Positions 24,612 to 42,524 of a stretch of 42,524 bases of DNA are shown in pieces. The notes beneath the pieces were generated by a model. It saw only the letters and a list, made by a program, of their open reading frames with translations. It was not told the origin of the DNA and did not search any database. Numbering within the stretch: position 1 is the stretch's first letter; the number at the start of each line of letters is the position of its first letter. The DNA is taken from contig JAHXHR010000014.1 in assembly GCA_025656505.1 (NCBI GenBank), positions 1 to 42,524 on the forward strand, given 5' to 3'. Both the position numbers and the translations under genes were made by a program. Source of the DNA: Candidatus Thiodiazotropha sp. (ex Epidulcina cf. delphinae). GTDB lineage: Bacteria > Pseudomonadota > Gammaproteobacteria > Chromatiales > Chromatiaceae.

Positions 24612-26225
24612 TTAGACGTCCTTAATCCGAAAGCGCTCGAGCCTGGCCGTGGCCTCAAGAAGCTGCAGCGGGATGATACTGGGAGCGGGGATCATCTCTT
24701 CCACCCGGTACTCCTGTCCGATGACGAAGAAATGTTTCGGCACGATCAGCGAGCTGCGATGATTATGTCCCTGGTTGATAAAGAGACTGGGACGATCCAC
24801 CGTCTCCTGCTCACTCTGTTGTTGCTTCATCGGGCGGACGGTGATCGGCTCGATTTTCCCGAGAATGAACTGCAGGCCGATTTCAAGTTGATCATCCTCG
24901 CGGTTCAAGGCGCGCTTGACTATGCCGACCTTCCAGTCCTTTCCCTCACGCCTGTGGTGACTGGAGAGCAGGATGATCTCACCGACGAGCGGAAGATTGG
25001 CGCCCTGTTTGGCTATCCGCAACGCAACCCCGGAGCGGCTCTGATTGCTGCGTAGGCCGGTCAGTTGACGGCCCGAGTCGGCGTTCCCCGCACTGAGAAT
25101 CCCGGCCGGCTGGGACACGGTGATCTCTTGCTCCTCATGCTCCGGTGCGACCTGCCCACCCGTCAGGTAACGGTGGATATTCTTTAGCCCAACCCACAAC
25201 ATGACCCGGCCGGAAGTGTTGTGGCGTTCGCTGTCGCGTTGCAAACGGATATGCCAGGTTCTCAGTATACGTGACAGCAGATGGGTGGCTTCCTGGGTCG
25301 TCAACCCAGAGATGACATCCGGTTTTCTCTCCTCTGAACGCTCCATGAGCCTTAGTTGGAGGTGCAGTCGCTGGCTCACCGGGTTGAGATCGAACAAGGC
25401 AAAACGGGGTTGCGTCAGGTTGTCCCGGCTATCCGTGTCGTAGAGGTAAGGAGGCACTTCGCCCAAGCGGTCGATGACATAGTGTCCGGTGGGTTCCGTT
25501 TCGGCAGTCGGCGGCACGATACGGGCTTCCCCGGCAAGGGTATTGAGATAGTCGAAACAGAGTCTCGGCTCTCCCTCCTGCATGTGGCAGGGATCGAGGA
25601 GCACCAGCAGCAGGAAACGATTAAACTGGTGTGCGATGGTGGCCTGTTCAGGTTTAGGCTGATCATGGTCGTCGATCCGGTTGTGGTGCAGTTTCTGTTC
25701 CTCGGCATAGGTCCTCAGCCGGGATGCTTCACGATAAGTCGCCACTGATCTGCAGTCGAAATCCTCACAGGCCAGGAGGAATTCAAGCAAAAAATATTTG
25801 ATGGCGTAGTAGATGGCGCGGTTGAGCCGCCCGAGATTCTTTCGGTTGGGTTTATTACCGATGCACTCATTTGCGATGTGACTGTAACCGTAGGCCATCT
25901 CTGACATGACGCTGCGGATCAACGTTACCGGGGCCTGTTCCTTGCGTTGTGTAAGTCCATGAGAGAGTCGGATCGAGGGCGTGGTATAGATCTCCATCAA
26001 CTCTTCGCGCTTCTTTATCCGGCCTGGAAACCGGTTCAGGCGGCCCAGGCTGGTGATCACGGTTTCAGCAAGCTGCTGTTGATTGGCGAACGGCAGCGCC
26101 GTGGCCCACTGACGGAGCTGCCCAGGGTCGGTTTCGACCAGAGGGTTTTCGAAGGGATCGGGCTGGGGCACGAAAAATAATGCCTGTTGAGCCGATGTCC
26201 TCTGATGTGTGAAAAAATCAAACAT
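24612..26225 (-). CDS. PilZ-domain-like protein, predicted c-di-GMP effector
   Basis: The 537-residue cytoplasmic protein has a long helical N-terminal part and a C-terminal beta-rich domain. The segment 'LRSNQSRSGVALRI' near residue 392 fits the (D/N)xSxxG motif of PilZ domains that bind cyclic di-GMP. An upstream arginine (in 'GRQLTGLR') could be part of the first PilZ motif, but it is imperfect. Proteins of this architecture are common in sulfur-oxidising and other gammaproteobacteria. It is convergent with the YihY gene; no clear operon partner. The PilZ assignment is probable, the function inferred. Confidence 0.68.
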   Translation of the reverse strand: MFDFFTHQRTSAQQALFFVPQPDPFENPLVETDPGQLRQWATALPFANQQQLAETVITSLGRLNRFPGRIKKREELMEIYTTPSIRLSHGLTQRKEQAPVTLIRSVMSEMAYGYSHIANECIGNKPNRKNLGRLNRAIYYAIKYFLLEFLLACEDFDCRSVATYREASRLRTYAEEQKLHHNRIDDHDQPKPEQATIAHQFNRFLLLVLLDPCHMQEGEPRLCFDYLNTLAGEARIVPPTAETEPTGHYVIDRLGEVPPYLYDTDSRDNLTQPRFALFDLNPVSQRLHLQLRLMERSEERKPDVISGLTTQEATHLLSRILRTWHIRLQRDSERHNTSGRVMLWVGLKNIHRYLTGGQVAPEHEEQEITVSQPAGILSAGNADSGRQLTGLRSNQSRSGVALRIAKQGANLPLVGEIILLSSHHRREGKDWKVGIVKRALNREDDQLEIGLQFILGKIEPITVRPMKQQQSEQETVDRPSLFINQGHNHRSSLIVPKHFFVIGQEYRVEEMIPAPSIIPLQLLEATARLERFRIKDV

Positions 26226-27044: not shown

Positions 27045-27581
27045 ATGTCCCGCTCAGCATGCCTGTTCATCGCGCTGTCGATGATGCTTATGGATGTCGG
27101 GGCGGTGACCCGTGATCCGGACAGCTATTTCTTCGACCCGTCATTGGGTGATTTCAGCGAGGAACTGGAACTGGCCGGGGAGGAGGGTAAAAAGGGCGTG
27201 TTGATCATGTTTGAGATGGATGAGTGTCCTTTCTGCCATCGAATGAAGACCCGGGTGCTGAACCAAGTCGATGTGCAGGACTATTTCAAACGGTATTTCC
27301 TGATTTACTCAGTGGATATCGAGGGCGACGTGGAGATTGTCGATTTCCAGGGACAGGCCATGAAGGAGAAGGATTTCGCCTTCAGGCAGCATAAGGTCCG
27401 CGCCACCCCGGTATTTGGCTTTTTTGACCTTGAAGGCAATATGGTCGCTCGCTTTACCGGGGCGACCAACGATGTTCGTGAGTTCCTTTGGCTCGGCGAA
27501 TTCGTGGTTGAAGGCCATTACAGGTCGAGCAACTTTTCACGCTACAAGAGAGCAAAAAGAAAGGAACGCAGGAACCAGTGA
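27045..27581 (+). CDS. Exported thioredoxin-fold protein, SoxW/thioredoxin_2 type
   Basis: The ATG at 27045, with GAGAAGGC upstream, gives 178 residues with a hydrophobic signal segment; the ATG at 27018 is a weaker option. It carries 'KKGVLIMFEMDECPFCHRMKTRVLN' with Cys61 and Cys64 and 'VRATPVFGFFDLEGNMVARFTGA', the pattern of SoxW-like periplasmic thioredoxins. The C-terminus is very basic ('SRYKRAKRKERR'). No other sox genes are seen. Its stop overlaps the start of the TolC-like gene, so the thioredoxins and the efflux-type genes form one operon. Confidence 0.85.
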   Translation: MSRSACLFIALSMMLMDVGAVTRDPDSYFFDPSLGDFSEELELAGEEGKKGVLIMFEMDECPFCHRMKTRVLNQVDVQDYFKRYFLIYSVDIEGDVEIVDFQGQAMKEKDFAFRQHKVRATPVFGFFDLEGNMVARFTGATNDVREFLWLGEFVVEGHYRSSNFSRYKRAKRKERRNQ

Positions 27582-28873
27582 ACAGGTTTCCCTGTTTGTC
27601 GGCCGCTGCCGGCGGCAGTCTGTGCCTGACCCTAGGCCTGGGTGTGTGCTGGCCGGTTTTCTCTCAGGAACCCCTGCCTTCACCGCTGACATTGCAATAT
27701 GCACTGGAATTGGCGGGCGATGTTCATCCTGAGCGGGTGTTGGCGGACGCTGCATTGGCGCGGGCTCAAGCCCATCGCCGACAGGTGGGGGCGAGCGAGG
27801 ATGTGCGTGTCGATTTGACAGCGGAACTGCGCGCCATCGAGCCCTCGGATATCGCTGTCGATCAAACGCACAACGACAGTCTCGCCCGACTCAGTTTCAG
27901 CAAACAGTTGTATGATTTCGGCCGCACCACCCATGCCGAAGCAGCCGCCGAGGCGGGACTGGAGTCCCGTCAGTGGCATTTGCTCGAGGTCAAACAACAG
28001 CGCAGACTGGATGTGATGGCGCATTTCTTTGCTGTTCTGTTGGCGGATTTGGAGTATGCCAGAGACAACGAAGCCCTCTCCATTGCCTTTATCCGTTTTG
28101 ACAGGGCTCGCGCCAAGAATGAACTGGGTAAGGTTTCGGATATCGGGATGCTGGAATTGGAAAGCAGCTACCAGCAGTCCCGTCGCCGGATGAATGCCAG
28201 CCGGAACAGGCAACGCATCACCCGCTCCCAACTCGCCATCAGTCTCAATCGTCCCCTGGATCTACCGAGTGATCTGGAGATGCCAGTGCTTGAGGCTTCG
28301 GAAGAGATAGGGGATATTGATGCCTTGGTAGAGCAGGCCCTACGGGAAAATCCCCGGCTTGGCGTTTTGCGCGCAGAGCTGTTGGCGGCGCGAGAGCAGC
28401 TTCAGACAAGCGAAGCGGAGAATAATCCGATATTGCGTGCGGAGCTTGAGGCGGTAGCCTATCGGCGTGAGTTGGGTGGTCGAAACCCCCTCACAGCCGC
28501 CCTCGTGCTCGAATTGCCACTCTATACCGGCAACCGTGTAGCGGCGGAGGTTGCCGAGGCGCGCGCCCTGATTCAACAAAAGCAGGCGGCGCTGACTGCC
28601 TACGAATACGCATTACGACAGCAACTGCTGGACTACTGGATGGAGCTAGACAGACGGCGACTGCAAAGGGAGGAGTTGCAGGTGACAGAGGATTATCGGG
28701 ATCTCTACCTGGATCGCAGCCGTACGCTCTATGAGATGGATGTAGCGACCGATCTGGGCAACGCCATGACGCAGATCGCCGATATCCAGTTCGAACGGGC
28801 GAAGAACGAGTTTCAGATTCATCTGATACGTGCGCGTGTTCAGGCGCTCACCGGGGGAGCGTCGCCGGAGTGA
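27578..28873 (+). CDS. TolC family outer-membrane efflux protein
   Basis: The GTG start overlaps the previous stop. The 431-residue product has a signal peptide ('GVCWPVFSQ') and two long helical-hairpin repeats typical of outer-membrane efflux proteins, e.g. 'LTLQYALELAGDVHPERVLADAALARAQAHRRQVGAS' and 'ALRENPRLGVLRAELLAAREQLQTSEAENNPILRAE'. It would form a trimeric channel with the adaptor encoded next. No inner-membrane pump is encoded beside them. It is the nearest candidate outer-membrane partner for the type I exporter 1.3 kb downstream of it, though that locus is a separate unit. Confidence 0.87.
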   Translation: MNRFPCLSAAAGGSLCLTLGLGVCWPVFSQEPLPSPLTLQYALELAGDVHPERVLADAALARAQAHRRQVGASEDVRVDLTAELRAIEPSDIAVDQTHNDSLARLSFSKQLYDFGRTTHAEAAAEAGLESRQWHLLEVKQQRRLDVMAHFFAVLLADLEYARDNEALSIAFIRFDRARAKNELGKVSDIGMLELESSYQQSRRRMNASRNRQRITRSQLAISLNRPLDLPSDLEMPVLEASEEIGDIDALVEQALRENPRLGVLRAELLAAREQLQTSEAENNPILRAELEAVAYRRELGGRNPLTAALVLELPLYTGNRVAAEVAEARALIQQKQAALTAYEYALRQQLLDYWMELDRRRLQREELQVTEDYRDLYLDRSRTLYEMDVATDLGNAMTQIADIQFERAKNEFQIHLIRARVQALTGGASPE

Positions 28874-28900
28874 TTAAATAGATCGAGTGGGAGGAAAGCG

Positions 28901-29665
28901 ATGAGGGTTCTGTTGATTTTATGCCTGCTGCTCGGCGGGCAATCGGCTGCCAGGGATCTGCAGGCGGTGACCGATTGGCGCAACCGCGTGGAGCTGAGCA
29001 CCGTTGCCAGCGGCATGGTCAGTCGGGTGAATGTGGCAATCGGCGAAGCCGTCAACCGGGGATCAGTGCTTATCGAATTGGATCTGCGGCTGAATAAAGC
29101 CGAACTGGCGGCAGCCAAGTCACGTCTCGAGGCGGCGGCACAGCGGAATGACGAAGCGCGCCGGGAGTTGGATCGCTCACTCGAATTGTACGATCGCACC
29201 ATGTTATCCGATCATCAGCGCAAGCAGGCAGAGATCGAAGCCGCCACCGCCGATGCGCTCTACCGCGAGGCCCAGGCGAAGCTGGCCGGGATTCGCCTGC
29301 AACGGGAATACAGCCGGGTAACCGCACCGTTCGACGGTATCGTCGAGAGGATTCATGTGCAACCGGGACAAGCAGTGGTCAATCGCTTCCGCGCCGTGCC
29401 TTTACTGACGCTGATAGAGCATGGCGTCATGAAGGCGGTTGCCGGTGTCGATGAACGGACGGCAGCAGGATTGAAACCGGGAACAACGGTACGGATCGGT
29501 ATACGCGGCCAATGGCTGGACGGAAAGATCTCTCTTCTCGGCATACAGCCGATGGCGCAGGATGCCGAGGGTGCGAGGTATACTATGGAAGCCGGTTTTA
29601 CCCCTTTGCAAGGGATGAATTTACGGGCGGGGGAAAAGGCTGTGATGAGGTTACAGGATGAGTGA
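28901..29665 (+). CDS. Periplasmic adaptor subunit (HlyD/RND type)
   Basis: The 254-residue protein is a short membrane-fusion protein: signal peptide ('LLLGGQSAA'), a first lipoyl half 'VELSTVASGMVSRVNVAIGEAVNRGSVLIELD', a helical hairpin near residues 70-130, and a second half 'YSRVTAPFDGIVERIHVQPGQAV'. The ribosome-binding site is GGGAGGAAAGCG. It follows the TolC-like gene by 27 bp and should join it to an inner-membrane transporter, which is missing from the window. The start of the acylphosphatase gene overlaps its end. Confidence 0.87.
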   Translation: MRVLLILCLLLGGQSAARDLQAVTDWRNRVELSTVASGMVSRVNVAIGEAVNRGSVLIELDLRLNKAELAAAKSRLEAAAQRNDEARRELDRSLELYDRTMLSDHQRKQAEIEAATADALYREAQAKLAGIRLQREYSRVTAPFDGIVERIHVQPGQAVVNRFRAVPLLTLIEHGVMKAVAGVDERTAAGLKPGTTVRIGIRGQWLDGKISLLGIQPMAQDAEGARYTMEAGFTPLQGMNLRAGEKAVMRLQDE

Positions 29666-29948
29666 TCAGTTGGACAAAGGAGAGATTTGTGTCCGATGTC
29701 ATGTCGCCGGGCGCGTTCAGGGTGTCTTCTATCGCGCCTCGGCAAGGTATGAGGCGCAACGGTTGGGCGTCAACGGATATGCCAGAAATCTCCACGACGG
29801 CCGAGTGGAGGTAGTGGCCTGCGGCAGCGTCAGTGCAGTGGAGGAGTTACGGGAGTGGCTGCGCAAAGGTCCGGCCAACGCCGAAGTGACCAGTGTATCC
29901 TGTGCGGTCATCGATTTTCACGACTACCCGCAATTCGCCATTGGCTAG
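29658..29948 (+). CDS. acyP: Acylphosphatase
   Basis: Acylphosphatase hydrolyses acyl phosphates such as carbamoyl phosphate. The 96-residue protein contains 'CHVAGRVQGVFYRASARYEAQRLGVNGYARNLHDGRVEVVACG', with the catalytic Arg (in GVFYR) and Asn (in RNLHDG). The ATG overlaps the adaptor gene, so it is the last gene of that operon. The 258-bp gap that follows is AT-rich and carries a promoter candidate for the secretion locus. Confidence 0.93.
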   Translation: MSDQLDKGEICVRCHVAGRVQGVFYRASARYEAQRLGVNGYARNLHDGRVEVVACGSVSAVEELREWLRKGPANAEVTSVSCAVIDFHDYPQFAIG

Positions 29949-30050
29949 TGCGGCGCAACATATATACCGCACCCAGTTATACTTTTGTGCAATTTTAGTG
30001 GTTTTGATGATGACTATTGCGCCAATTCGCTATTTGTCATAAAAATGCTA

Positions 30051-30080
30051 TTGAAAATAGTGCCGCCAGTCGTTTATTAT
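30051..30080 (+). promoter_or_regulatory. Candidate promoter of the type I secretion locus
   Basis: TTGAAA and TATTAT are spaced by 18 bp, about 125 bp before the exporter start. Just downstream is a short palindrome, CTAATA-ATGC-TATTAG (30093-30108), that could be an operator or leader hairpin. The exporter ATG at 30207 has no good ribosome-binding site. Confidence 0.4.
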
Positions 30081-30206
30081 CCCCCCATATAACTAATAAT
30101 GCTATTAGAGGCTTCAACCACAATGTTTGGTAATAATACATAATCAGCATGTCTTGCCGGCCAAACCCATCGTTCAATTAAGGGACTGCCGCACTATCGC
30201 TGACGT

Positions 30207-32531
30207 ATGGATACGGGACTACACACACTAGTTGCCTTAGCGCGTTTTCACCAGTTACCCGCTGAGCCTGACCAGATTGCCCACCAATTCGGTGATCCAG
30301 GGCAATCTTTTACCGTTACCCACATCCTGCAAGCGGCAAAAGCCCTTACCTTAAAAGCCAAACAGCTCTCGCTCAAACTCAGTGATCTCGATAATACGAC
30401 CTTACCGGCGATTGCCCAAGCCAAAGACGGCAGCTTCTTTATTATTGCACGCGTGTCAGATCAAACGCCTAATCCAAGTCAAGATGGCCTGGAGAGTATC
30501 GATAACCCGACAAGTGCCCAGGGGGCGCTTATCCATGATCTGCGCGAGGCTGCGCCGCGCTTCGTCACCTTAGAAGAACTGGAGCAATGTTGGTCAGGTG
30601 AATTGATCGTAGTCACCCGCCGTCAGGGGTTGAGTGAAAGCCTGCAACAAAAGTTCGATATAAGCTGGTTTATTCCTTCGCTGGTGAAATACCGAAAACT
30701 CTTTAGCGAAGTATTAATCGCCTCCTTTTTCCTCCAACTATTTGCCTTGGCCACACCTTTATTTTTCCAAGTCGTGATGGACAAGGTGCTGGTGCATCGG
30801 GGCTTTACCACCCTGGATGTCTTAGCCCTTGGCTTTTTTGTGGTGGTGGTTTTTGAAGCGTTTCTCGGCGGCTTTCGTAACTATTTATTTAGTCACACCA
30901 CCAACCGTGTGGATGTGGAGCTAGGTTCCCGTTTATTTAATCATTTGCTGGCTTTGCCGCTCGCCTATTTTGAATCGCGCCAAGTGGGGCAAAATGTGGC
31001 ACGGGTGCGCGAACTGGATACCATTCGCAACTTTATCACCGGCACCGCCTTAACCTTGGTGATTGATCTCTTTTTTGTCTTCGTGTTTTTGGCGGTGATG
31101 TGGTACTACAGCCCCACACTCACCTGGATTGTGCTCGCCACCATTCCCTTTTACGTGGTCTTGTCCCTGTTTATCACACCAATATTGCGTCACCGTCTCA
31201 ACGATAAATTTAAACATGGTGCGGCCAATACCGCCTTCTTGACCGAGTCCATTACCGGTATCCGCACGGTAAAATCGTTGTCGGTTGAACCGCAAATGCG
31301 CCGCAAGCTGGAAGATCACCTTTCCAGCTATGTCCACGCTTCTTTTCGCAGCCAAAACCTCAGCAATGTGGCCAACCAAATAGCGGGTCTGATCAATAAA
31401 CTGATGACCTTGGGCATTATCTGGTGGGGCGCTCATCTGGTGATTGCCGGTGGCATTACGGTCGGGCAATTGATCGCCTTTAATATGTTGGCTGGGCGCG
31501 TCAGCGGCCCGATTTTAAAACTGGTGCAACTGTGGCAGGAGTTCCAGCAAGCGGGAATCTCCATTCAGCGTTTGGGAGATATTCTCAATACGCCCAGAGA
31601 ACCGGGTTTTAACCCCAACCGCTCCCGTTTGCCCTCCTTGCAAGGGGCTGTCTCCCTCGACCATGTGCTGTTCCGCTACCGTGCCGACGGGCCAAGAGTG
31701 CTTGAGAATGTTAACTTGCATGTCAAACCCGGTGAAGCCATCGGTATTGTGGGGCGCTCAGGCTCCGGTAAAAGTACTGTCACCAAGCTGATTCAACGCT
31801 TGTATGTCCCCGAAGCGGGACGGGTATTGATCGACGGCGTGGACTTATCGATGGTCGATACCGCTTGGCTGCGCCGTCAGATCGGTGTGGTCTTGCAAGA
31901 AAACTTTCTCTTTAACCGCAGTGTACGGGAAAATATCGCCCTGGTTGACCCCTCGATTGCGATGGAGAGAGTCGTCACCGCCGCGACAATGGCCGGCGCC
32001 CATGACTTTATTGTCGAACTACCCGAAGGCTACGACACGATGGTGGGCGAACAAGGCAGCAACCTCTCCGGCGGGCAACGACAGCGTTTAGCCATTGCCC
32101 GCGCCTTGATTACCAACCCCCGCATACTGATTTTTGATGAGGCCACCAGTGCGCTGGATTACGAATCCGAACGCCTCATCCAAGATAATATGGCTCGTAT
32201 CTGCCAGGGCCGCACTGTCTTTATCATTGCCCACCGTTTAACCACAGTGCGCCAATGCAATCGCATTATCGTGATGGACAAGGGGCGTATTGTTGAACAA
32301 GGCGATCATGATCAATTGATTGACCTTAATGGCTACTACGCCAAGCTTTACAGCTACCAAAGCCATCAACCGCGTTTACAAACCGTTGCTAATCCGCCGG
32401 AAAAAAGCGGTATCACCTTAACCTCATCGCATCCTGAGCGTGGTTCTTTCCGCGTTGAACGCAGTGGTAATGCCAATAAAGACGGGAATAGCCTTAGCCC
32501 TAAAGCACCCAGCAAGGATGATGAATCATGA
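30207..32531 (+). CDS. Type I secretion ABC exporter, HlyB-like with C39-like domain
   Basis: The inner-membrane ATPase of a type I secretion system, 774 residues. The N-terminal 130 residues are a C39-like domain without the catalytic cysteine ('TGLHTLVALARFHQLPAEPDQIAHQF'), as in HlyB, so it binds rather than cleaves the substrate. A six-helix membrane domain follows. The nucleotide-binding domain has Walker A 'GRSGSGKST', signature 'LSGGQRQRLAIARAL' and Walker B 'ILIFDEATSALD'. About 50 extra hydrophilic residues at the C-terminus are unusual. Its stop overlaps the HlyD gene start (ATGA). Confidence 0.95.
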   Translation: MDTGLHTLVALARFHQLPAEPDQIAHQFGDPGQSFTVTHILQAAKALTLKAKQLSLKLSDLDNTTLPAIAQAKDGSFFIIARVSDQTPNPSQDGLESIDNPTSAQGALIHDLREAAPRFVTLEELEQCWSGELIVVTRRQGLSESLQQKFDISWFIPSLVKYRKLFSEVLIASFFLQLFALATPLFFQVVMDKVLVHRGFTTLDVLALGFFVVVVFEAFLGGFRNYLFSHTTNRVDVELGSRLFNHLLALPLAYFESRQVGQNVARVRELDTIRNFITGTALTLVIDLFFVFVFLAVMWYYSPTLTWIVLATIPFYVVLSLFITPILRHRLNDKFKHGAANTAFLTESITGIRTVKSLSVEPQMRRKLEDHLSSYVHASFRSQNLSNVANQIAGLINKLMTLGIIWWGAHLVIAGGITVGQLIAFNMLAGRVSGPILKLVQLWQEFQQAGISIQRLGDILNTPREPGFNPNRSRLPSLQGAVSLDHVLFRYRADGPRVLENVNLHVKPGEAIGIVGRSGSGKSTVTKLIQRLYVPEAGRVLIDGVDLSMVDTAWLRRQIGVVLQENFLFNRSVRENIALVDPSIAMERVVTAATMAGAHDFIVELPEGYDTMVGEQGSNLSGGQRQRLAIARALITNPRILIFDEATSALDYESERLIQDNMARICQGRTVFIIAHRLTTVRQCNRIIVMDKGRIVEQGDHDQLIDLNGYYAKLYSYQSHQPRLQTVANPPEKSGITLTSSHPERGSFRVERSGNANKDGNSLSPKAPSKDDES

Positions 32532-33952
32532 GTGCGGTGGCGGTGTTCAAAGACGCTTGGCAAAACCGCCATAAGCTGGGGGACAACAAACAGTCCCAGG
32601 AACTCGCCGCCTTTTTACCCGCCGCGCTGGAAATTCAGGAAACACCGCCTAATCCCTTAACCCGTTGGCTGGCCTGGAGCCTGTTGGCCTTGGTGTTAAT
32701 TGCCATTATTTGGGCTTGCTTCGGCCAAGTGAATATCGTGGCTTCCGCCGAAGGCAAAATTATTCCCAGCTCCCGAGTGAAACAAATCCAACCGCTGGAA
32801 AAAGGCGTGGTCAAAGCCATCCTGGTCAATGAGGGGGATTATGTCACCCAGGGGCAAGCGCTAATTGAGCTGGACACTACGCTCACAGCAGCCGATAAAA
32901 ACCGCCTGCAATCAGAGCTTCATACCACCACCTTAAATCTGGCAGTTAATCAAGCACTACTCGCTCAGATTGAAACGGCAGCTAAGAAAAACGCCGAAAA
33001 ACAACCCGCCCTTCGCCGTGATCAATTAGTACTCAACTTGCCTGCATCGGCCAGCGCCCAGGAAACCCAACTGTATCAACACCTGCTCTGGCAACAATGG
33101 CAGCAATACTGGTCGCAGTATCAATTCTTGCAAAGCAGCTTGCGTAAAACCCAGGCCGAACAAGCGACTTCCAAAGAAATTATTAGCAAACTAAAACAAA
33201 CCCTGCCTATCGTCACCAAACGTGCGACCACCTTGGAAAACCTGCACAAAAAAGATTTTGTCTCCGAGACGGATTACCTGCAAGCCGAGCAAGAACGTAT
33301 ACAAAATCAACAGGACTTAGCCGCCGAAAAACAGCGCTACCAACAACATAAAGCGGCAGAGTCCGAAGTGAGTGAGCAAATCAACACCCATATCGCCCAA
33401 ACCAGCGGCACCTTGTTGGCGCAAATCGCGGATCAACAGCGACAAATCGCCGCTCTGAATGAAGAATTCACCAAGGCGACAGATCTGAACGACAAACAAA
33501 TTCTCTATGCCCCGGTGGCCGGTCGCGTGCAAGAGTTGGCGATTAATACCGTTGGCGGCGTTGTTACCGAAGCCCAGCAGCTGATGCTGGTCATCCCCGA
33601 TGAAGAACAATTAGAAGTGGAAGTCTTTTTAGAAAACAAAGATATCGGCTTTGTCCACGAAGAAATGCCCGCAGAGGTCAAAATCCACACCTTCCCCTTT
33701 ACCAAGTACGGCGTGATTGATGCGCAAGTTTCCAATGTGTCCAACGACGCTATTGTCGATGAACAGCGGGGTTTGATTTACAGCATGCAACTGCGCATGG
33801 CGAAAAACACCATTGCCGTTAATGGCAAAGACGTCAATCTGATGCCCGGCATGGCTGTTACGGCTGAGGTAAAAACGGGTAAGCGGCGAATTATTGAATT
33901 TTTCTTAGCGCCTTTGTTAAGGGCCAAGAGTGAGAGTATTAGAGAGCGGTAA
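32528..33952 (+). CDS. Type I secretion membrane fusion protein, HlyD-like
   Basis: The periplasmic adaptor of the secretion system, 474 residues. It has a cytoplasmic N-terminus of about 55 residues, one membrane segment ('WSLLALVLIAIIWACFG'), a lipoyl half 'GKIIPSSRVKQIQPLEKGVVKAILVNEGDYVTQGQALIELD', a long coiled coil, and a C-terminal beta domain with 'VMPGMAVTAEVKTGKRRIIEFFLAPLL'-like ending (here 'LMPGMAVTAEVKTGKRRIIEF'). It works with the exporter upstream and a TolC-type channel. Translation is coupled to the exporter gene. Confidence 0.95.
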   Translation: MSAVAVFKDAWQNRHKLGDNKQSQELAAFLPAALEIQETPPNPLTRWLAWSLLALVLIAIIWACFGQVNIVASAEGKIIPSSRVKQIQPLEKGVVKAILVNEGDYVTQGQALIELDTTLTAADKNRLQSELHTTTLNLAVNQALLAQIETAAKKNAEKQPALRRDQLVLNLPASASAQETQLYQHLLWQQWQQYWSQYQFLQSSLRKTQAEQATSKEIISKLKQTLPIVTKRATTLENLHKKDFVSETDYLQAEQERIQNQQDLAAEKQRYQQHKAAESEVSEQINTHIAQTSGTLLAQIADQQRQIAALNEEFTKATDLNDKQILYAPVAGRVQELAINTVGGVVTEAQQLMLVIPDEEQLEVEVFLENKDIGFVHEEMPAEVKIHTFPFTKYGVIDAQVSNVSNDAIVDEQRGLIYSMQLRMAKNTIAVNGKDVNLMPGMAVTAEVKTGKRRIIEFFLAPLLRAKSESIRER

Positions 33953-33972
33953 ATAATCAATAGGCAAATAGC

Positions 33973-36573
33973 ATGAAAAATCGATACACAGAATCCGTAT
34001 TAAAAGTGTTGGACTGCACTAAGAGCAATAAGAAGTGGTATGACGAAAAAAAACTCTTTGCGGGTTATCATACGGTGTCCATTCAAGGCGAAACAATTAA
34101 AGGCCAGCGTGACCCGGAAAGGAGACTGGCAAAAGTCGATATTGATTTTACCGGTAAGCGCGTGTTGGATGTGGGTTGCTCCAACGGAGGTTTATTGCAT
34201 GCATTAACTGAAAAAATTATCTTTGGCGTTGGTGTAGATTTCAATGCTAAGTGCATCAATGCCGCTAATGCACTTAAGGCGGCTAACCAACTCAATAATA
34301 TTCATTTCTACACTTTTGACCTGGATAAGGAAGACTTATCCATGCTACACCACTTTGTGTTTGGCGAGCCGGTCGATATCTGCCTTTTCTTTAATCTGTC
34401 AATTTGGGTGAAACGCTGGAAGGAAGCCTTTACCCTATGCTCTGAATTGACAAAGACCATGCTATTTGAGGCGCATGGCAATGAGCAACAACAAGAAGAA
34501 CAATTAAGGTTCGTTAAATCGATTTATCAAGAGGTGCAACTTCTCTCAGAGCAATCGGACGACGACCCGACCTATGCCAAGCGTAAGATGTACCGTTGTG
34601 ACCATAAAATCGAAAGAAAGAAGCTTCAAAACACTCAAGGTAATACAGAATTTCTAAAAGTGTATAGCGAGGAAGCGGTCAAAGAAGCTTACGAGCAAGC
34701 ATTTCCTGGGCATGCGGTCAAAAGTATTCACTTTTTTCCTAATACCCATGAAAGCGTCGTTGCCGACATCAATGGCGACTATATTTTAAAGCTACCCCGA
34801 CCACATCGAGGTTTGGCCGGCTTAAACACCGAACAGGCAGTGACAGACTTTATGCGTGAACGGCTTCAGTTGTCCATTCCTGCATTAAGCGTGCATGCCG
34901 ACCCGATCCTTATGGGGCGTTACCAGAAATTACCGGGAGAAACCTTTGACAAAACCCGCTATGCCAACCTACCCGAGCAAGATAAAAATACCTTAGCCAA
35001 ACAACTGGCCGAATTTATTGCTGCTCTTCATGCCACCTCTCAACAAGAGATAAAACAAGCCGGACTGACACTATCGCCTTCTTGGGAATTGTCTACGGCG
35101 CTGATTGAAGAGCAGTTAGGCTCGGATAAGGAACCGGTTATACAAGCACTTGTGCCGGAAGTGATACGCAATCATAAAGCGCTCAATGTCCCGGAAACCA
35201 ACCAAGTGTTTGGTCACTTTGATATTCACGGCAGTAATGTGCTTGTTAACAAGGCATATAATCAAGTAACGGCGATCATTGATTTCGGTAATTGTAAGGT
35301 AGGCGACTTACACCAAGATCTTTCCGTAATGAACTTAAGCTCTCCCGATTTGGCCAAACGCATGGCTCGGTCATACGAGCAAATCGCAGAGCGCAAACTC
35401 AATCGTTTGCTGATTCAGCACTACACCACCATCTTTTACTTAAATCTCTTGGCGGGCTTAAAACGCAAAAAAGCCGACTCCCAGTTCACCTACTGGCTTG
35501 GTGAGCTGAGCAATTGGTATCAGCATCTATTACGGGACAGAGCGCAAGCAAAGCTCAATAAACGCAAGCCCGCGTCTTCGTTGCCTGCGGGTTGGAGAAA
35601 GTGGCTCGCCTCCAATACGATCAAGGGTATTCCTGCTGCTGGACTCCAAAAAGCCTTAAGAGAGCACGGCTTCTCCCCTATTGATATTGCGACTGAGATG
35701 TTGTTGGTGGAGGATCACCCCTATGTTCAGGCAGGCAAAGAGTTTTTTCATACCCTCAATAAGCGTGAGTGGCTATTAAACACCTGTAATACCCTGGCGT
35801 CACTCGATACACGTTATGCGACAGCAATCGAAAAGCGCAAAACGCCCGACTTTCAAACCTTTATTAATGACTATTACGGTAAACACCTGCCGGTTGTGTT
35901 GACAGGTGGCGTCGATCATTGGCCTGCGCTGAAAAAGTGGACGCCTGATTTTTTACTGGAACAATTCGGCGATAAAGAAATAGAAATTCAATTTAACCGT
36001 GAGCAAGACCCACTGTACGAGCGCAATTCAGGCAAGCATAAAAAGCGCATGCTCATGCGGGAATTTATCGCCCTAATTGAAAAAGGAGAAAGTAATAACC
36101 ACTATATGACCGCCAATAATACCAAGAACAGTTTTTCTAGCCTCGAACCCTTATTCGAGGATGTCGCCGACTTTGGTGAAGGCTATCGTCAAACAGACAC
36201 CATCCATTCAGGAAACTTTTTTTGGTTTGGCCCCAAAGGCACCTATACACCTATTCACCACGATTTAACCAATAATATGCTGATACAAATCTATGGGCGA
36301 AAAAAAGTCACACTGATACCGGCCAAGCAAGTGCCTTGGCTGTACAACGACAAGGGCGTTTACAGTGCGGCGGAATTCCCCAATTTTGATCCAAAGCGTC
36401 ATCCCATGATGAAAGACCTTACGCCCGTTGAAGTCATTATCCATCCGGGAGAATCCATTTTTATTCCCGTGGGTTGGTGGCATTGCGTTGAATCGCTCGA
36501 CGTATCTATCAGCAATGTCTTCACCAACTTTAATGCACCTAATCAGTTTTCAGTGAATTTTCCCAGAGGGTGA
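33973..36573 (+). CDS. Three-domain fusion: methyltransferase, APH-like kinase, JmjC/cupin_8 oxygenase
   Basis: The 866-residue protein fuses three catalytic-looking domains. Residues about 1-220 are a class I methyltransferase with 'GKRVLDVGCSNGGLLHAL' (64-78). Residues about 227-540 resemble aminoglycoside/hydroxylysine-type kinases: 'FGHFDIHGSNVLV' near 414 (catalytic Asp) and 'AIIDFGNCKVGD' near 437 (metal-binding Asp). Residues about 610-866 are a cupin_8/JmjC oxygenase with His762-x-Asp764 ('IHHDLTNNM') and distal His837 ('GWWHCVES'), a complete iron triad. All three active sites look intact. It follows the HlyD gene by 20 bp in the RTX secretion locus, so modification of the secreted protein is the simplest guess, but no reaction is demonstrated. 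Confidence 0.88.
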   Translation: MKNRYTESVLKVLDCTKSNKKWYDEKKLFAGYHTVSIQGETIKGQRDPERRLAKVDIDFTGKRVLDVGCSNGGLLHALTEKIIFGVGVDFNAKCINAANALKAANQLNNIHFYTFDLDKEDLSMLHHFVFGEPVDICLFFNLSIWVKRWKEAFTLCSELTKTMLFEAHGNEQQQEEQLRFVKSIYQEVQLLSEQSDDDPTYAKRKMYRCDHKIERKKLQNTQGNTEFLKVYSEEAVKEAYEQAFPGHAVKSIHFFPNTHESVVADINGDYILKLPRPHRGLAGLNTEQAVTDFMRERLQLSIPALSVHADPILMGRYQKLPGETFDKTRYANLPEQDKNTLAKQLAEFIAALHATSQQEIKQAGLTLSPSWELSTALIEEQLGSDKEPVIQALVPEVIRNHKALNVPETNQVFGHFDIHGSNVLVNKAYNQVTAIIDFGNCKVGDLHQDLSVMNLSSPDLAKRMARSYEQIAERKLNRLLIQHYTTIFYLNLLAGLKRKKADSQFTYWLGELSNWYQHLLRDRAQAKLNKRKPASSLPAGWRKWLASNTIKGIPAAGLQKALREHGFSPIDIATEMLLVEDHPYVQAGKEFFHTLNKREWLLNTCNTLASLDTRYATAIEKRKTPDFQTFINDYYGKHLPVVLTGGVDHWPALKKWTPDFLLEQFGDKEIEIQFNREQDPLYERNSGKHKKRMLMREFIALIEKGESNNHYMTANNTKNSFSSLEPLFEDVADFGEGYRQTDTIHSGNFFWFGPKGTYTPIHHDLTNNMLIQIYGRKKVTLIPAKQVPWLYNDKGVYSAAEFPNFDPKRHPMMKDLTPVEVIIHPGESIFIPVGWWHCVESLDVSISNVFTNFNAPNQFSVNFPRG

Positions 36574-36632
36574 AATAATGGCATGCCGGAATATTCAACA
36601 TATTAAATCTATAGCTCGAATCAAAAAGGGTA

Positions 36633-37517
36633 GTGTCCGTGTGTAAAGTTACCCGGCGTCATCTGCTGGTGTGTCTACTGGGCCTAATGCTCAGTAGCAC
36701 CGCTATTGCAGAGGTTGTGCGCTGCAAAGACAAATCAGGCCAGATCATTTTCACGGATAATCCACGGCTTTGTTCTAGTAAAGAACAGGAAACGATTGTA
36801 TTAAAGTCAGATAATCAATACACATCGATTGTTGATATTAAGACGAAGCGCAGAATAAAAACGAATTTTCGTGTGCCCAAAAGACTCTATAAAAAAGCAG
36901 ATAGCACCTGGGTGATCTATATCGAAAAAAATTTGCTCGCTAATGATCCGTCGCTGGGCCAACAAGCATTAAGTAAACTTGAGCTTAACCTCAACGATAT
37001 TTTCGATAAATTGCCGCCTGTAGCGGCGAGTCGTTTAAAAAGCCTCTCTTTTTACCTGATGTGGGGAAAGCAATCCACTAAAGAAAAACCGCTCAATGGT
37101 TTGTCTTATATTCGTAAAGGCGAAGCGAATAATTACCCTACACTTGATCCACGCTGGAGCCACTCCATCATTGTATACAGCGCAAAAAACCTTATGTACC
37201 TGGATGAGGTTTGGACGAAAAAAGCGCTAATGCATGAGATGGCTCACGCTTGGCATATTACTAACTGGCCAGATAAACACCCGCCCATTGTTGCGGCCTA
37301 TGAAAATGCAAAGCAGCAGGGTTTGTATCGTAGCATCAAAGACTATAAAGGAAGGTCAATCCCCAAAGCCTACGCATTAAAAAATCAATTGGAGTATTTT
37401 TCGGATCTTTCGGCTATCTATTTTGTAGGTGGTAATTATTATCCATTTAATCAAGAAGGTCTATCGAAGTATGACAATGTAGGGCTGCAACTGGTATCCA
37501 GTTTATGGGGATACTAG
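36633..37517 (+). CDS. Exported zinc metallopeptidase with DUF4124-like N-terminus
   Basis: The GTG start has AAAAAGGGTA upstream; the 294-residue product has a clear signal peptide ending near 'STAIA'. The next 30 residues, 'EVVRCKDKSGQIIFTDNPRLC', look like the DUF4124 motif. The catalytic region has 'HEMAH' at 201-205 in 'KALMHEMAHAWH', with 'EYFSD' about 50 residues later (Glu254), the layout of a gluzincin-type zinc site. It is probably secreted to the periplasm and could process the RTX protein or act as a partner. The family is not one I can name. Composition is AT-rich like the following genes. Confidence 0.75.
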   Translation: MSVCKVTRRHLLVCLLGLMLSSTAIAEVVRCKDKSGQIIFTDNPRLCSSKEQETIVLKSDNQYTSIVDIKTKRRIKTNFRVPKRLYKKADSTWVIYIEKNLLANDPSLGQQALSKLELNLNDIFDKLPPVAASRLKSLSFYLMWGKQSTKEKPLNGLSYIRKGEANNYPTLDPRWSHSIIVYSAKNLMYLDEVWTKKALMHEMAHAWHITNWPDKHPPIVAAYENAKQQGLYRSIKDYKGRSIPKAYALKNQLEYFSDLSAIYFVGGNYYPFNQEGLSKYDNVGLQLVSSLWGY

Positions 37518-37551
37518 CTCAACAAATTAAATATGGAGGGGGGGGAAGTAG

Positions 37552-37944
37552 GTGATTTCAAATTTTAGGGTTTATGTTTACTTGTTTTTTCTATTTTTTT
37601 TAGAGGGATGCGGAATGTCTGAAAATAAAAATCTTGAGTACTTTAAAAGTCAAATATCAAGGTTGTTAGGCGACAATCATTCGGTGGAAGTTGTTGCTTC
37701 TGATATGACTGATTTTTCTTGGAATAAGCTTTGTTTTGAGCGCAATGAATCTCTTACGCTAACATTTTCTTCTGGAAATTCAGAAGTCGTTTTTGAGTTA
37801 GATTATGAAGATTATTTTGTAGATGAAGCGTATGTAGAGGGTTCTTTGGACAGAAAATGTATTTCCAGCCAAGACCGCATTTTTATCAAGAAGAAATACC
37901 CAGGATATTCCGAAACAATAGAATTTTTATCTACTAATAAATAA
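37552..37944 (+). CDS. Small lipoprotein in the RTX locus
   Basis: A GTG start lies behind a GGAGGGGGGGG ribosome-binding region that contains a run of eight G. The 130-residue product has an N-terminal hydrophobic segment ending in 'FFLEGC' (Cys20), a lipobox. The mature part is acidic, AT-coded and unlike any family I know. It lies 10 bp upstream of the RTX gene start. One possibility is an immunity protein or a surface partner for the RTX protein; both are guesses from position. Confidence 0.65.
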
Positions 37945-37954
37945 GGACTTAAAC

Positions 37955-40900
37955 ATGTCACTCTTAAACGACCTACGAAATGGTATTGAGCAAGATGCTT
38001 ATCGTTTTTATGAGCAACATACAGGCACAACTTTAGCAAGAGATACCAATGGCAACATTATTCCTCAAGGCCATAACGATGCGTTAGACTCATTTAGGCA
38101 CGCTTATACTAGTGGGCGTGTAACTCAGCTTGCAGCAGATAATCAGTGGATAGCAGAGCATTTTGGAGATCAAAATGAAATTGGGCCAGGGCATCCAAAT
38201 GATCCCTATGAGCATAGAATGGATCTTTGGAACAATGAAGTAGGAAGAAGAATTGGTGATGACGTATTTACAAAAGAAGAGTTAGCAAGGCGTCTGGCAC
38301 AAGAATTAAATAATGGTGATTTGGTAACAGATTTAAGCGATCAACGATTGCAGGATTTGTATCCTGGTGATCCCAGGCTTCAGTTACCCCCAGGTGATCC
38401 TCAGCGTGAAATATTGACAGAAGATGATGTGGATACGATCAATGATGACATTGATCAACGGTTAGACAACCCTCCTACACCCGTACCGACGCCTGTTCCC
38501 CCTCCAGTACCCGCACCTGTGCCGGTACCACCCCCTGTACCAACGCCTGTGCCAGTACCTACACCAGTACCAGTTCCAACGCCTGTGCCAGTGCCAACGC
38601 CCGTACCGGTTCCAACACCTGTGCCAGTACCGACACCTGTACCGGTTCCAACACCTGTGCCAGTGCCAACGCCTGTGCCAGTACCTACACCAGTTCCAAC
38701 GCCTGTGCCAGTGCCAACGCCCGTACCGGTTCCAACACCTGTGCCAGTACCGACACCTGTACCGGTTCCAACACCTGTGCCAGTGCCAACGCCTGTGCCG
38801 GTTCCAACGCCTGTGCCGGTTCCAACGCCTGTGCCGGTTCCAACACCTGTGCCGGTTCCAACACCTGTGCCGGTTCCAACACCTGTGCCGGTTCCAACAC
38901 CTGTGCCAGTACCGCCGGTGCCAACTCCAACCCCAACACCAACTCCAGGTTCACCTATTATTGTTGATCTGGATGGCGATGGCGTTGAAACCGTAGGCTT
39001 AATGGCTGATATCCACTTTGATCATGGTGGTGACGGTTTCAGAGAATTGACGGGGTTTGCTGCTGCGGATGATGGCTTTCTAGCGCGCGATACTAATGGC
39101 GATGGCGTCATCAATTCGGGCGCCGAATTATTTGGTAACGAAACCTTATTAGCGGATGGTTCTTCTGCCAGCAATGGTTTTGAAGCCTTGGCCGAATTGG
39201 ATTCAAACGCCGATGGCGTTATTGATGCAAATGATGAGTTGTTTGGTGAATTGAGGATATTCCAAGACGCTGATCAGGATGGCGAAACCGATGAAGGCGA
39301 GCTGTTGTCCCTCACAGATGCGGGTATCGAGTCGTTATCTGTCGCCTATACCAATCAGGCGTTTGTCGATGACTTCGGTAATGAGCATCGTCAAGTGGGT
39401 AATTATATTAATAGTGCGGGTCAAACCATGACCATGACGGATGTCTGGTTTGCTCGGGATCTGACTGACACGGAATCCGATGCGATTGACGTATCCAATA
39501 CCATTGCTGGTCTGCCGGATGTCCAAGGCTTTGGTCAGACGCACACTCTTCACCAAGCTATGGCAAGGGATGAATCCGGTGAATTGCAGAATTTGGTCAC
39601 ACAATTCGTCAACGCTTCTTCACGCGACGAGCGCCAAGCTTTATTAGAACAAATTATTTTTTCATGGACTGGTCAGGAAGGTGATTACCAGCAATATTAT
39701 CAATCGCCCATTGATGCGCGGAGAATTGGTGCGTTGGAAGCCTTCTACGGCTTTGAAATACCGTTGCCACGAGGCAGCGGCCAACAGTATGCCAGAATCT
39801 ATGGTGAAATCTTTGATAACTGGTCTGACAAAGTCTTTTATCAATTATCTGCCCGTAGCTATTTACAACCCTTCTTCCAAGAAATTAGTTGGGACAAAAA
39901 TCCTGAAACGGGCGTATGGGAAGGCGACTTTACCCAGGTGGTCGATAACTTGTTCGACTACGCCGAAGCCAACCCGTCAGAAGCCCAAGATATCCTCCTT
40001 GACTTCGCTCAGGCCATTCATGGTGTAAATCCTTACAACACGATTAACGAGGATCGTTTGCGTGATATAGTGGATCAATTTATCCAAACGGCGGATCTGT
40101 CGGGCTATTCCGATGAAACCATTGGCGTTGTCGTTGCCGCTACCATGAATGCCTCTGCGGGTGCCGACACCATTCATGGCAATGCCAATAATAATATTTT
40201 ATTTGGCCTGGAAGGCAACGATACCCTGAATGGTCAAGCAGGTAATGATGTGCTCGATGGCGGGACGGGTGATGATGTACTTGACGGTGGCAGCGGTAAT
40301 GATGAATACCATTTTGGCACAGGTTATGGCCGAGACCGAATTCGCAACCGTGACACTGATGCCGGACGTTATGACATCATTCGCTTGTTGGACGGTATTA
40401 CCGCAGAGGGTATTACCCTATCCCGTCAAGGAGATGACCTCGTCATAGCAATCAATGGCACTGACGATGTACTGCGTGTTGAATCCCACTTTGATCAAGA
40501 AGGCGCTTCACAGCGCTACATTGATGCCATTGTTTTCGATGATGGCAGTATGTTAGATGTGGGGCCAAGTCAATTTGATCAAATTAATGTGGCTTCTCAA
40601 TCCATCACTGAAGGTGATGATGAATTGCATGGAACATCTGCCGCTGAAATTATTGATGGCTTGGGTGGTAATGATCAAATTTACGGAAAAGATGGCGGCG
40701 ATTGGTTAATTGGCCGTGAAGGGAATGACCAACTGTTTGGTGATGCAGGCGGTGATTTGCTAACTGGAGACGAAGGAGATGATCAGCTTTACGGTGGAGA
40801 AGGAGAAGACTATCTCACTGGAGGAACTGGCCACGATGAATTACATGCTGGGGCTGACGATGATTTCCTTAGAGGCGACCAAGGGGATGATGTACTTTCC

Positions 40901-42524
40901 GGCGGCCAGGGCGATGATTACTACCTATTTAATCTAGGTGATGGCCTGGATGTGATTGATAACCAAGGTAGCTCAGGAGATACCGATAACATTCTATTAG
41001 GCAATGGCATTCTTCCCGAGCAAGTCGTTATCCGCCGCTCAGGTAATGACTTAATGATCATTATCCAAGAAGGGATTGATGAAATCCGTGTAGAAAACTA
41101 CTACACCAATGAAGCCGGTCGTATCGACAACCTAGTTTTCGATGATCCTGCCAGCTCCGTTGCTTCTTGGGATGCGGCAACCTTGGAGAGCCTAGCCGAT
41201 CAAGCCACGGCAAACGATGACGAATTGCATGGCGATGATGAGGCCAACACCCTGGATGGTTTAGCGGGTGATGACTTGCTCGCGGGCCACGGCGGTAATG
41301 ACACCTTATTGGGTTCTGAAGGGAACGATACCCTGCAAGGTAACGATGGCAATGACACACTCTCCGGCGGTAACGGCAACGACACGCTTGAAGGTGACCG
41401 AGGAGATGACACGCTTACCGGTGGTTTAGGTGATGATGTACTCAGTGGAGGTGCAGGCGGTGATACTTACGTGATTGCCGCCGACGGCAGTCATGACATC
41501 ATTCAAGATTACGACAACAGTAACGTCGATCTTGATCGAATCGTTTTTGCTGAAGGTATTACGCAAGCGGATGTGAGCTATCGAAGAACGGCTACCGACT
41601 TGGTTGTTGATATCAATAAGGATGGTGTATTAAGCACTGTGACCATTGAAAATGGTTTTACCAACAGTCGAAATCTGGTTGACCAACTGGAGTTCGCTGA
41701 TGGAACGACCGTTAGTATAGAAACAGCACTTGCCGAAGCTGCCACCTGGACGGGAACGGACGAAGCAGAAACCATTTACGGTTATGAAGGCGCTGATACA
41801 CTTGATGGAGCAGGAGGCAATGATCGACTCTACGGAGCGGATGGCAACGACACGCTCTCCGGCGGAGACGGCAACGACCGTGTGTACGGCCGGAACGGCA
41901 ACGACACCGTGTCGGGCAATGCCGGAGACGATTACGTCTACGGTGATGCCGGTGATGACGTGCTCGACGGCGGCGGTGGCCGGGACCGCGTCTATGGCGG
42001 CGCCGGCAACGATACCCTGCGTGGCGGCGCCGGCAGTGGCGATAGTTTGTATGGCAATGCCGGCAACGACACCTACCTGTTTGGCAGCGGCGATGGCAAC
42101 ACCACCATCAGCAACTCGGATAATGGTGCGGATCGCAATGATGTGTTGCGCTTCTTAGCCGGGGTTGATCCGAGCGATGTGCGGGCCACGCGCTCCAGCA
42201 CAAGCTTGCTATTAACCATCCAAAGTACCGGTGAAGTGATCACGGTATCGAGCTTCTTTAGCGGCAGCCGCTATGAACTCAATACCGTGGAATTTGCCGA
42301 CGGCACCGTGTGGGACACCGATGCCATTAAAACCCTGGTCCTGGGCGCGACAGACGGCGCGGACAATATCACCGGCTACGCCAGTGACGACACCATTGAT
42401 GCGCTTGGCGGTAACGACTACCTCGACGGCGCCGATGGCAACGACACGCTCTCCGGCGGAGACGGCAACGACCGTGTGTACGGCCGGAACGGCAACGACA
42501 CCGTGTCGGGCAATGCCGGAGACG
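37955..42524 (+). CDS. Giant RTX protein, C-terminus beyond window
   Basis: The ATG at 37955 follows ATAAGGACTTAAAC. There is no signal peptide, as expected for type I secretion. The 1,523 visible residues contain a DUF6973-like domain (1-150: '[19 protein letters not shown]', '[16 protein letters not shown]'), a Pro-rich linker (about 173-331), and an FrpC-like calcium-binding domain starting '[13 protein letters not shown]' with EF-hand-like loops ('[16 protein letters not shown]', '[16 protein letters not shown]'). A helical region follows to about 730, then several RTX blocks of GGxGxDxLx type. Haemolysin-type calcium-binding related domains ('[27 protein letters not shown]') separate the blocks. 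It is probably the substrate of the adjacent exporter. Toxin versus adhesin is open. Confidence 0.92.
38471..38947 (+). repeat. Coding tandem repeat for Val-Pro/Thr-Pro linker
   Basis: The stretch encodes repeated VPVPTP units of 18 bp (type GTGCCGGTTCCAACGCCT). A higher-order 120-bp period is visible: 38581-38679 is identical to 38701-38799. The reading frame is kept throughout. Such extended proline linkers act as rigid spacers, here between the N-terminal domain and the calcium-binding part. Repeat number is likely to vary between strains. Confidence 0.9.
41840..41930 (+). repeat. 91-bp perfect direct repeat in RTX gene, first copy
   Basis: These 91 bp recur exactly at 42434-42524, 594 bp (198 codons) downstream, where the window ends. 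They encode RTX nonapeptides around '[18 protein letters not shown]'. The match may continue beyond the window. Confidence 0.92.
42434..42524 (+). repeat. 91-bp perfect direct repeat in RTX gene, second copy
   Basis: Identical to 41840-41930 up to the last base of the window. The in-frame spacing of 198 codons covers one RTX block plus one calcium-binding-related domain, which suggests a long tandem module. Confidence 0.92.

Follow-up and report, generated by a model that had tools for sequence, protein, structure and literature searches.

A methyltransferase–kinase–JmjC fusion in an RTX secretion operon as a candidate modifying enzyme for alternating-proline linkers

Introduction

The subject of this study is an 866-residue protein encoded in a 42,524-nucleotide stretch of Candidatus Thiodiazotropha sp. 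(ex Epidulcina cf. delphinae) (contig JAHXHR010000014.1), hereafter the window. It joins a class I methyltransferase (MT), an APH-type kinase and a JmjC (Cupin_8) oxygenase in one chain, and its gene lies among those of a type I secretion system (T1SS) and an RTX protein. Judged from sequence comparison, it is most likely a fused three-enzyme maturation enzyme for alternating-proline linkers. Several described systems share parts of this arrangement.

To our knowledge, CaoK and LxmK, the APH-type kinases of class V lanthipeptides, carry no fused JmjC or MT domain. Unlike the fusion, they dehydrate a small peptide together with a lyase. CaoK acts on peptide Ser/Thr, which it phosphorylates repeatedly (PMC9486802). 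WbdD, the O-antigen capping enzyme, also joins a methyltransferase to a kinase and phosphorylates the glycan end, then methylates the phosphate; unlike the fusion, it has a eukaryotic-type kinase and a glycan substrate (PMC3482155), and it is without a JmjC part. The arginyl C-3 hydroxylase JMJD5 (KDM8) binds its target arginine through Glu238 (PMC5862942). At this position the fusion-type JmjC has an invariant Gln, Tyr243 falls in a gap, and the MT and kinase parts find no match in the alignment with JMJD5. RTX operons place HlyB, HlyD and the RTX substrate in one gene row, as does the window; unlike the usual ones, the window gives a place in the row to the MT-APH-JmjC gene, and no acyltransferase was found among the operon genes scanned with Pfam.

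Collagen and plant prolyl 4-hydroxylases (P4Hs) belong to a 2-oxoglutarate oxygenase subfamily other than JmjC. Their proline-rich repeat substrates resemble the one proposed here for the JmjC part, while, unlike the fusion, they work in the eukaryotic secretory pathway. In collagen P4H the peptide is bound by a domain of its own (PMC12433258). No P4H family was among the 12 Pfam matches of the fusion protein at E 0.01.

The most direct literature searches gave no paper at all. The matches listed by the broader ones, several of them capped (12 of 4,806 and 15 of 1,257 matches in two cases), held nothing on an MT-APH-JmjC fusion or on a link between JmjC and proline-threonine repeats; subscription journals are sparsely covered, and this is weak evidence of absence. 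The available part of a review on bacterial protein hydroxylation (PMC4295552) likewise held nothing on a proline-linker JmjC theme. The domain families are known; among the matches listed, no paper described their combination or the proposed substrate.

Domain Architecture of the Fusion Protein

A sequence-only reading of the window had described three catalytic domains with intact signatures in one 866-residue chain. Domain-by-domain profile search bore this out, with all three Pfam matches above their curated cut-offs and the motifs present. Methyltransf_31 matched residues 61–125 (33.9 bits, cut-off 27, E = 3.1e-8), APH residues 267–468 (87 bits, cut-off 23.2, E = 2.2e-24) and Cupin_8/JmjC residues 629–847 (124.4 bits, cut-off 27.4, E = 9.7e-36); with such E-values, the three-domain match is no chance result.

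The first part combines the Methyltransf_31 match with motif I (VLDVGCSNGG), as expected of a class I S-adenosylmethionine (SAM) methyltransferase. The kinase part carries K273, D417 and N422 (in HFDIHGSN) and D437 (in IDFGN), and Foldseek gave APH(2'') as its best matches from a low-confidence model; the MT-APH structure model, being of low confidence, was excluded as proof. The JmjC part has the double-stranded beta-helix fold, and its HxD...H iron triad (H762, D764, H837) is kept in 25 of 25 rows of alignment A5. In Psychrobacter and Acinetobacter relatives, a second, similar helical copy precedes the N-terminal extension of the JmjC module, as judged by eye.

Other assignments were rejected. 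The best NCBIfam resistance model reached 49.8 bits, below its cut-off of 600, which disqualifies an aminoglycoside-resistance APH enzyme. A WbdD-type MT-kinase needs a eukaryotic-type kinase domain, and the fusion kinase matches APH instead. PADLOC returned one match in the fusion (mads_2, 3.7e-9, residues 59–139); it covers the methyltransferase part alone, and no defence role is argued from it.

Association of the JmjC Family with Proline-Repeat Linkers

The JmjC family is statistically linked with proline-repeat linkers. Relatives were sought by a motif-based scan with alignment A3 in 84,980 species genomes, which gave 551 candidate stretches, 533 of them confirmed. The best 80 loci were analysed: three full-length fusions, in Peristeroidobacter agariperforans (L059), Marinagarivorans algicola (L060) and Marinomonas phaeophyticola (L061), and 77 JmjC-only loci, in many of which a long (TP)n repeat is encoded by the gene next to JmjC. 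All 80 loci were then searched in six frames for stretches in which proline, with T or V, alternates or is dense. Such runs numbered 57 in the 451,768 bp lying no more than 3 kb from the JmjC gene and 10 in the 938,724 bp beyond, a rate ratio of 11.8. A run lay within 3.5 kb in 38 of the 80 loci, including 18/19 in Acinetobacter, 9/10 in Paraburkholderia, 4/4 in Massilia, 3/3 in Undibacterium, 1/2 in Actinomadura and the single loci (1/1 each) of Burkholderia, Actinocorallia and Peristeroidobacter. With one vote per genus-level group, cast as positive when any of its loci had a run, and with cyanobacteria pooled, 8 of 14 groups were positive; the chance expected from the background is 0.062 (p = 4.6e-7).

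Two families were followed genome by genome. In Oxalobacteraceae, the JmjC gene was present in 34 of 195 genomes; 18 of the 20 loci analysed from these 34 (62–76% identity to the Massilia query) had a run within 3 kb, with 40 runs near versus 3 far. As the displayed partners again resemble chitinases, these count as one lineage, not 20 events. In Moraxellaceae, 12 of 159 genomes had the gene (E 1e-40), and a (PT)4-coding run occurred in all 12 of them versus 28 of the 147 without it (Fisher's test, p = 1.6e-8, kinship uncorrected). The reversed control pattern occurred in 2/12 and 30/147 genomes, respectively, so that the (PT)4 rate without the gene is about the control rate (28/147 versus 30/147). 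The 12 include Psychrobacter genomes (G940, G941) in which the JmjC and linker genes stand apart. When the (PT)4 pattern was applied to 19 genomes, control matches were frequent in some G+C-rich ones, and the statistics were therefore restricted to Moraxellaceae.

Several observations weigh against a linker-directed role of the family. By the strict measure, no run lay within 3.5 kb in any of the 28 cyanobacterial or seven Psychrobacter loci, nor in the single loci of Marinomonas, Marinibactrum, Pirellulaceae and Marinagarivorans (0/1 each), the last at a contig end; a looser measure placed a proline-rich gene within reach in 9 of the 28 cyanobacterial loci, 7 of them TP-type. Splitting the cyanobacterial labels lowered the group test to 8/24 (p = 6e-5). 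Related loci are not independent, and every test was run without kinship correction. Eleven loci carrying other types of JmjC, taken as controls, showed no run either close by or at a distance, which leaves this control little power. Proline-repeat linkers also occur without the JmjC gene, as in the 28 of 147 Moraxellaceae, and the source genome has further TP-rich genes away from its single fusion copy. Among 17 viral contigs with a JmjC relative, none had an (xP)5 run in the listed open reading frames (ORFs), so the viral target may differ or the family may be broader than linkers. Lastly, proline-threonine repeats are described in type 11 secretion system cargo in a paper whose main text contains neither 'cupin' nor 'hydroxyl' (PMC12282271).

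Partner Proteins and the Probable Target Residue

Ten linker proteins were scanned with Pfam. They matched GH18 chitinases with CBM5/12 in Massilia and Undibacterium, Collagen_mid in Paraburkholderia, PATR in Burkholderia and DUF6801 in Actinomadura; in Acinetobacter, one, a lipoprotein, matched DUF4177 and another had no Pfam match. The Psychrobacter linker protein is a TbpB-like lipoprotein whose gene does not adjoin the JmjC gene, and in the window and in Peristeroidobacter the linker-bearing partners are RTX proteins. Across these lineages (the ten scanned proteins and the RTX proteins), the partners have only the linker in common, so far as Pfam shows. This sharing of the linker alone by several unrelated families is the main reason for taking it as the target, and the JmjC part is accordingly proposed as a hydroxylase that would modify alternating-proline linkers ahead of export. 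Since the JmjC family often adjoins unrelated exported proteins that share such a linker, the pattern suggests that bacteria have an equivalent of the enzymes that modify proline in collagen and the plant cell wall.

The window's RTX linker consists of P83 V48 T27 A1 G1 in 160 residues. The linker of the Peristeroidobacter partner has P59 and T32 among 96 residues, that is, T with extra P. In the Marinagarivorans genome, a contig other than that of the fusion starts within a PVPVP...PVPTPTPVP linker, with RTX repeats behind it; the visible part of this linker has mostly V beside P. The second residue thus varies, being T in stand-alone partners, V and T in the window and mostly V in Marinagarivorans, and because proline alone is constant it is the better guess for the modified residue; the JmjC part would most likely act on proline. 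Arginine is an unlikely substrate, as the JMJD5 Glu238 position aligns with Q673 and is Gln in all 25 chosen rows of A5 (counted on the alignment). Lacking the acidic residue at this position, the fusion was not assigned to the JMJD5-type arginyl hydroxylases.

The sequence-only reading had also envisaged that one residue is hydroxylated and then phosphorylated, with methylation third, by analogy with hydroxylysine kinases. This reading is supported in part: a protein-modifying chain remains plausible, with hydroxylation among its likely steps. The hydroxylysine scheme is disfavoured, since the window linker contains no lysine; moreover, the partner proteins scanned for the JmjC family have nothing in common but alternating-proline linkers.

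Distribution and Origin of the Fusion

The source genome holds a single copy of the fusion, which is also its only JmjC match. The fusion is no isolated case: its full-length form recurs in three further genomes, with best-segment identities of 60% (L059), 62% (L060) and 51% (L061). Outside the source genome, no full-length fusion was found in samples of the family (194 genomes, E limit 1e-3), the class (369 genomes, 1e-20) and the phylum (398 genomes, 1e-15), where matches were to single domains only. None of the 578 plasmid records with a match, and none of the 14 phage matches, covered 80% of the query. Within Cellvibrionaceae the JmjC part was present in 2 of 144 genomes, both among the known loci.

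In L059 the gene order is HlyB-HlyD-fusion-small ORF-RTX, close to that of the window, and in L060 the HlyB, HlyD and RTX ORFs all lie upstream of the fusion. The MT and APH parts of these two proteins, from different bacterial families, are 48–73% identical to those of the window with active-site residues intact; kinase and METHYLTRANSFERASE signature residues are intact in the three operon-linked fusions. In L061, SFG stands in place of the kinase DFG, and compared with the window protein the MT part is 47%, the APH part 35% and the JmjC part 68% identical. No T1SS adjoins this fusion, and its genome has no proline-linker run by two patterns; the flanks showed no HlyD or RTX match, and the sole HlyB match is a sugar-type ABC ATPase, judging by its neighbours. 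The kinase and MT may depend on an RTX client while the JmjC part has a life of its own, a view that this one case fits.

In a tree of JmjC sequences with 87 rows, the four fusions form one group (95/72; 94% of 200 bootstrap trees), nested in a larger group with stand-alone JmjC forms of Psychrobacter, Acinetobacter and Marinibactrum. The tree is rooted at its midpoint, 12 inner branches are open, and four loci (L078, L082, L084, L133) that gave no row were left out. Given this grouping, the simplest reading is that the fusion arose once. The JmjC branch as a whole spans Pseudomonadota, Cyanobacteriota, Actinomycetota, Planctomycetota and viral contigs. The scan with A3 found 17 JmjC-only loci in viral contigs (L042–L058, 34–39% identity), and a scan of such contigs with the fusion protein alone confirmed no relatives. 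By eye, most viral JmjC genes stand in phage-structural-looking rows, often right after a portal-like protein of ~800 aa.

Some further features of these genomes were noted. Downstream of the L060 fusion, a second JmjC is split over two frames in the draft (L060:12634-14386); in the first of its ORFs, 340 N-terminal residues resemble an alpha/beta-hydrolase by eye, without a Pfam match. A 210-residue ORF running off the contig, also without a Pfam match, could encode the head of a further RTX protein. In the source genome, TP-rich linker proteins are encoded near 27376 of G000:C46 and near 25145 of G000:C21, one with CxxCH-type motifs and one lipoprotein-like. Loci L007 and L008, in genomes of the source family, encode long proteins with a kinase-like stretch, recognised by eye, followed by a methyltransferase resembling that of the window; these are possibly WbdD-like.

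Proposed Mechanism and Alternatives

We give an even chance to the fusion working in the cytoplasm as a modifier of the RTX protein, with the JmjC part hydroxylating the alternating-proline linker and the kinase and MT parts decorating the protein. Its client would be the RTX protein whose gene is the third one downstream. The JmjC part would hydroxylate the linker (P-x-P-x), most likely on proline, before type I export; the APH-type part would then phosphorylate the RTX protein, e.g., on threonine or on the newly made hydroxyl, and the MT part would then decorate it, e.g., by methylating the product. We infer the hydroxylation, its placement on proline, the cytoplasmic site, the sequence of the steps and what the kinase and MT parts act on. 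If correct, a bacterial JmjC/Cupin_8 branch would gain a function and a substrate, in parallel to collagen and extensin maturation but through a different oxygenase family. In the fused form, a single chain would carry out three steps of protein modification and be linked to a T1SS substrate. The measurable chemical mark would bear on the purpose of (TP)n linkers in bacterial surface enzymes. A more ambitious version, which we regard as doubtful, is a bacterial hydroxyproline system. In it, the JmjC family would be dedicated to the alternating-proline linkers that exported proteins carry (chitinases, lipoproteins, autotransporters, collagen-like proteins and RTX proteins). In the lineage of the window, the fused chain would convert proline to hydroxyproline, phosphorylate this and methyl-cap the phosphate. 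We know of no protein with a methyl-capped phosphohydroxyproline.

Threonine rather than proline would be the modified residue if the APH-type part phosphorylated Thr and the JmjC part hydroxylated Thr or another linker residue; the Thr-rich (TP)n linkers of JmjC-only partners and the repeated Ser/Thr phosphorylation by CaoK (PMC9486802) speak for this. It is nevertheless unlikely, though it deserves some weight, as the linker in the L060 genome is nearly P and V only, V exceeds T in the window and proline is constant. The enzymes could also modify another RTX region (the head or the calcium repeats) or a co-exported small molecule or glycan, the linker association being a by-product of surface-protein islands. 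The partners do look exported, and the MT-kinase WbdD acts on a glycan (PMC3482155). However, the scanned partners have no common Pfam domain across lineages and co-occurrence persists in the Psychrobacter genomes with non-adjacent genes, which makes this explanation rather unlikely.

JmjC ribosomal oxygenases exist, and the JmjC part might act on the translation machinery (a ribosomal protein or factor), aiding synthesis of proline-repeat proteins, whose alternating repeats might translate slowly, and leaving the linkers untouched. Among such enzymes, ycfD has been compared with JMJD5 (PMC5862942). We consider this explanation quite improbable, however, given that fusion to a kinase and a methyltransferase, in an operon of T1SS and RTX genes, speaks for a single dedicated client. 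Finally, full-length copies number only four (the source genome and the best 80 of 533 relatives) and the L061 kinase shows decay, as would suit a decaying or chance product without joint function. The conservation of the L059 and L060 MT and APH parts across families, with their active-site residues, makes such a product very improbable.

The Secretion Operon and Neighbouring Genes

The window has the gene row of an RTX type I secretion system, with HlyB, HlyD and an RTX substrate in sequence (Table 1); the fusion gene starts 20 bases after the end of hlyD.

Table 1. Features of the fusion protein and its operon in the window.
Feature	Coordinates	Strand	Basis
HlyB-type T1SS permease/ATPase with C39-like domain	30207..32531	+	TIGR01846 1029.6 bits, cut-off 725.55; Pfam Peptidase_C39
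HlyD-type T1SS adaptor	32528..33952	+	NCBIfam TIGR01843, 367.5 bits, cut-off 208.65
MT-APH-JmjC fusion, 866 aa, candidate linker-modifying enzyme	33973..36573	+	single ORF
Class I methyltransferase part, residues 1-216, SAM motif VLDVGCSNGG 64-73	33973..34620	+	Pfam Methyltransf_31 and motif
APH-type kinase part, residues 217-535, K273, HFDIHGSN 415-422, IDFGN 436-440	34621..35577	+	Pfam APH, motifs, Foldseek
Helical N-terminal extension of JmjC module, residues 536-609	35578..35799	+	model helices 539-609, alignment A1
JmjC (Cupin_8) oxygenase core, residues 616-853, H762/D764/H837, K777	35818..36531	+	Pfam, model, alignment
Zincin-like protein, signal-like start (by eye), HEMAH motif	36633..37517	+	
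Small lipoprotein-like protein (by eye), no Pfam match	37552..37944	+	
RTX protein: DUF6973 head, proline linker, RTX repeats; extends past window edge	37955..42524	+	
P/V/T linker of RTX protein, 160 residues, candidate substrate	38471..38950	+	

The G+C content was 55.7% over positions 1–26500 versus 45.0% in the fusion gene, and ORFs resembling IS transposase genes by eye (L002:1743-2581) lie near the contig end past the RTX gene. On the basis of these two features, the T1SS-fusion-RTX operon may have been acquired. Promoter and terminator scans of 29500–42524 gave 17 and 18 sites, compared with 18.3 and 14.1 in shuffles; with counts so close to the shuffles, nothing was drawn from them.

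The RTX heads that precede the linker differ, with DUF6973 in the window (37955–38470) and no Pfam family in L059 (13821 onward), and in this they resemble polymorphic effector families. The lipoprotein-like gene between the fusion and RTX genes (within 36633–37944) has a low G+C content of 31.8%; as a guess, its product might serve as immunity protein against the DUF6973 head. Positions 27578–29948, ahead of the T1SS genes, hold TolC-like, RND-type adaptor and acylphosphatase genes, which probably form a separate efflux unit; the TolC-like protein might serve both this unit and the T1SS.

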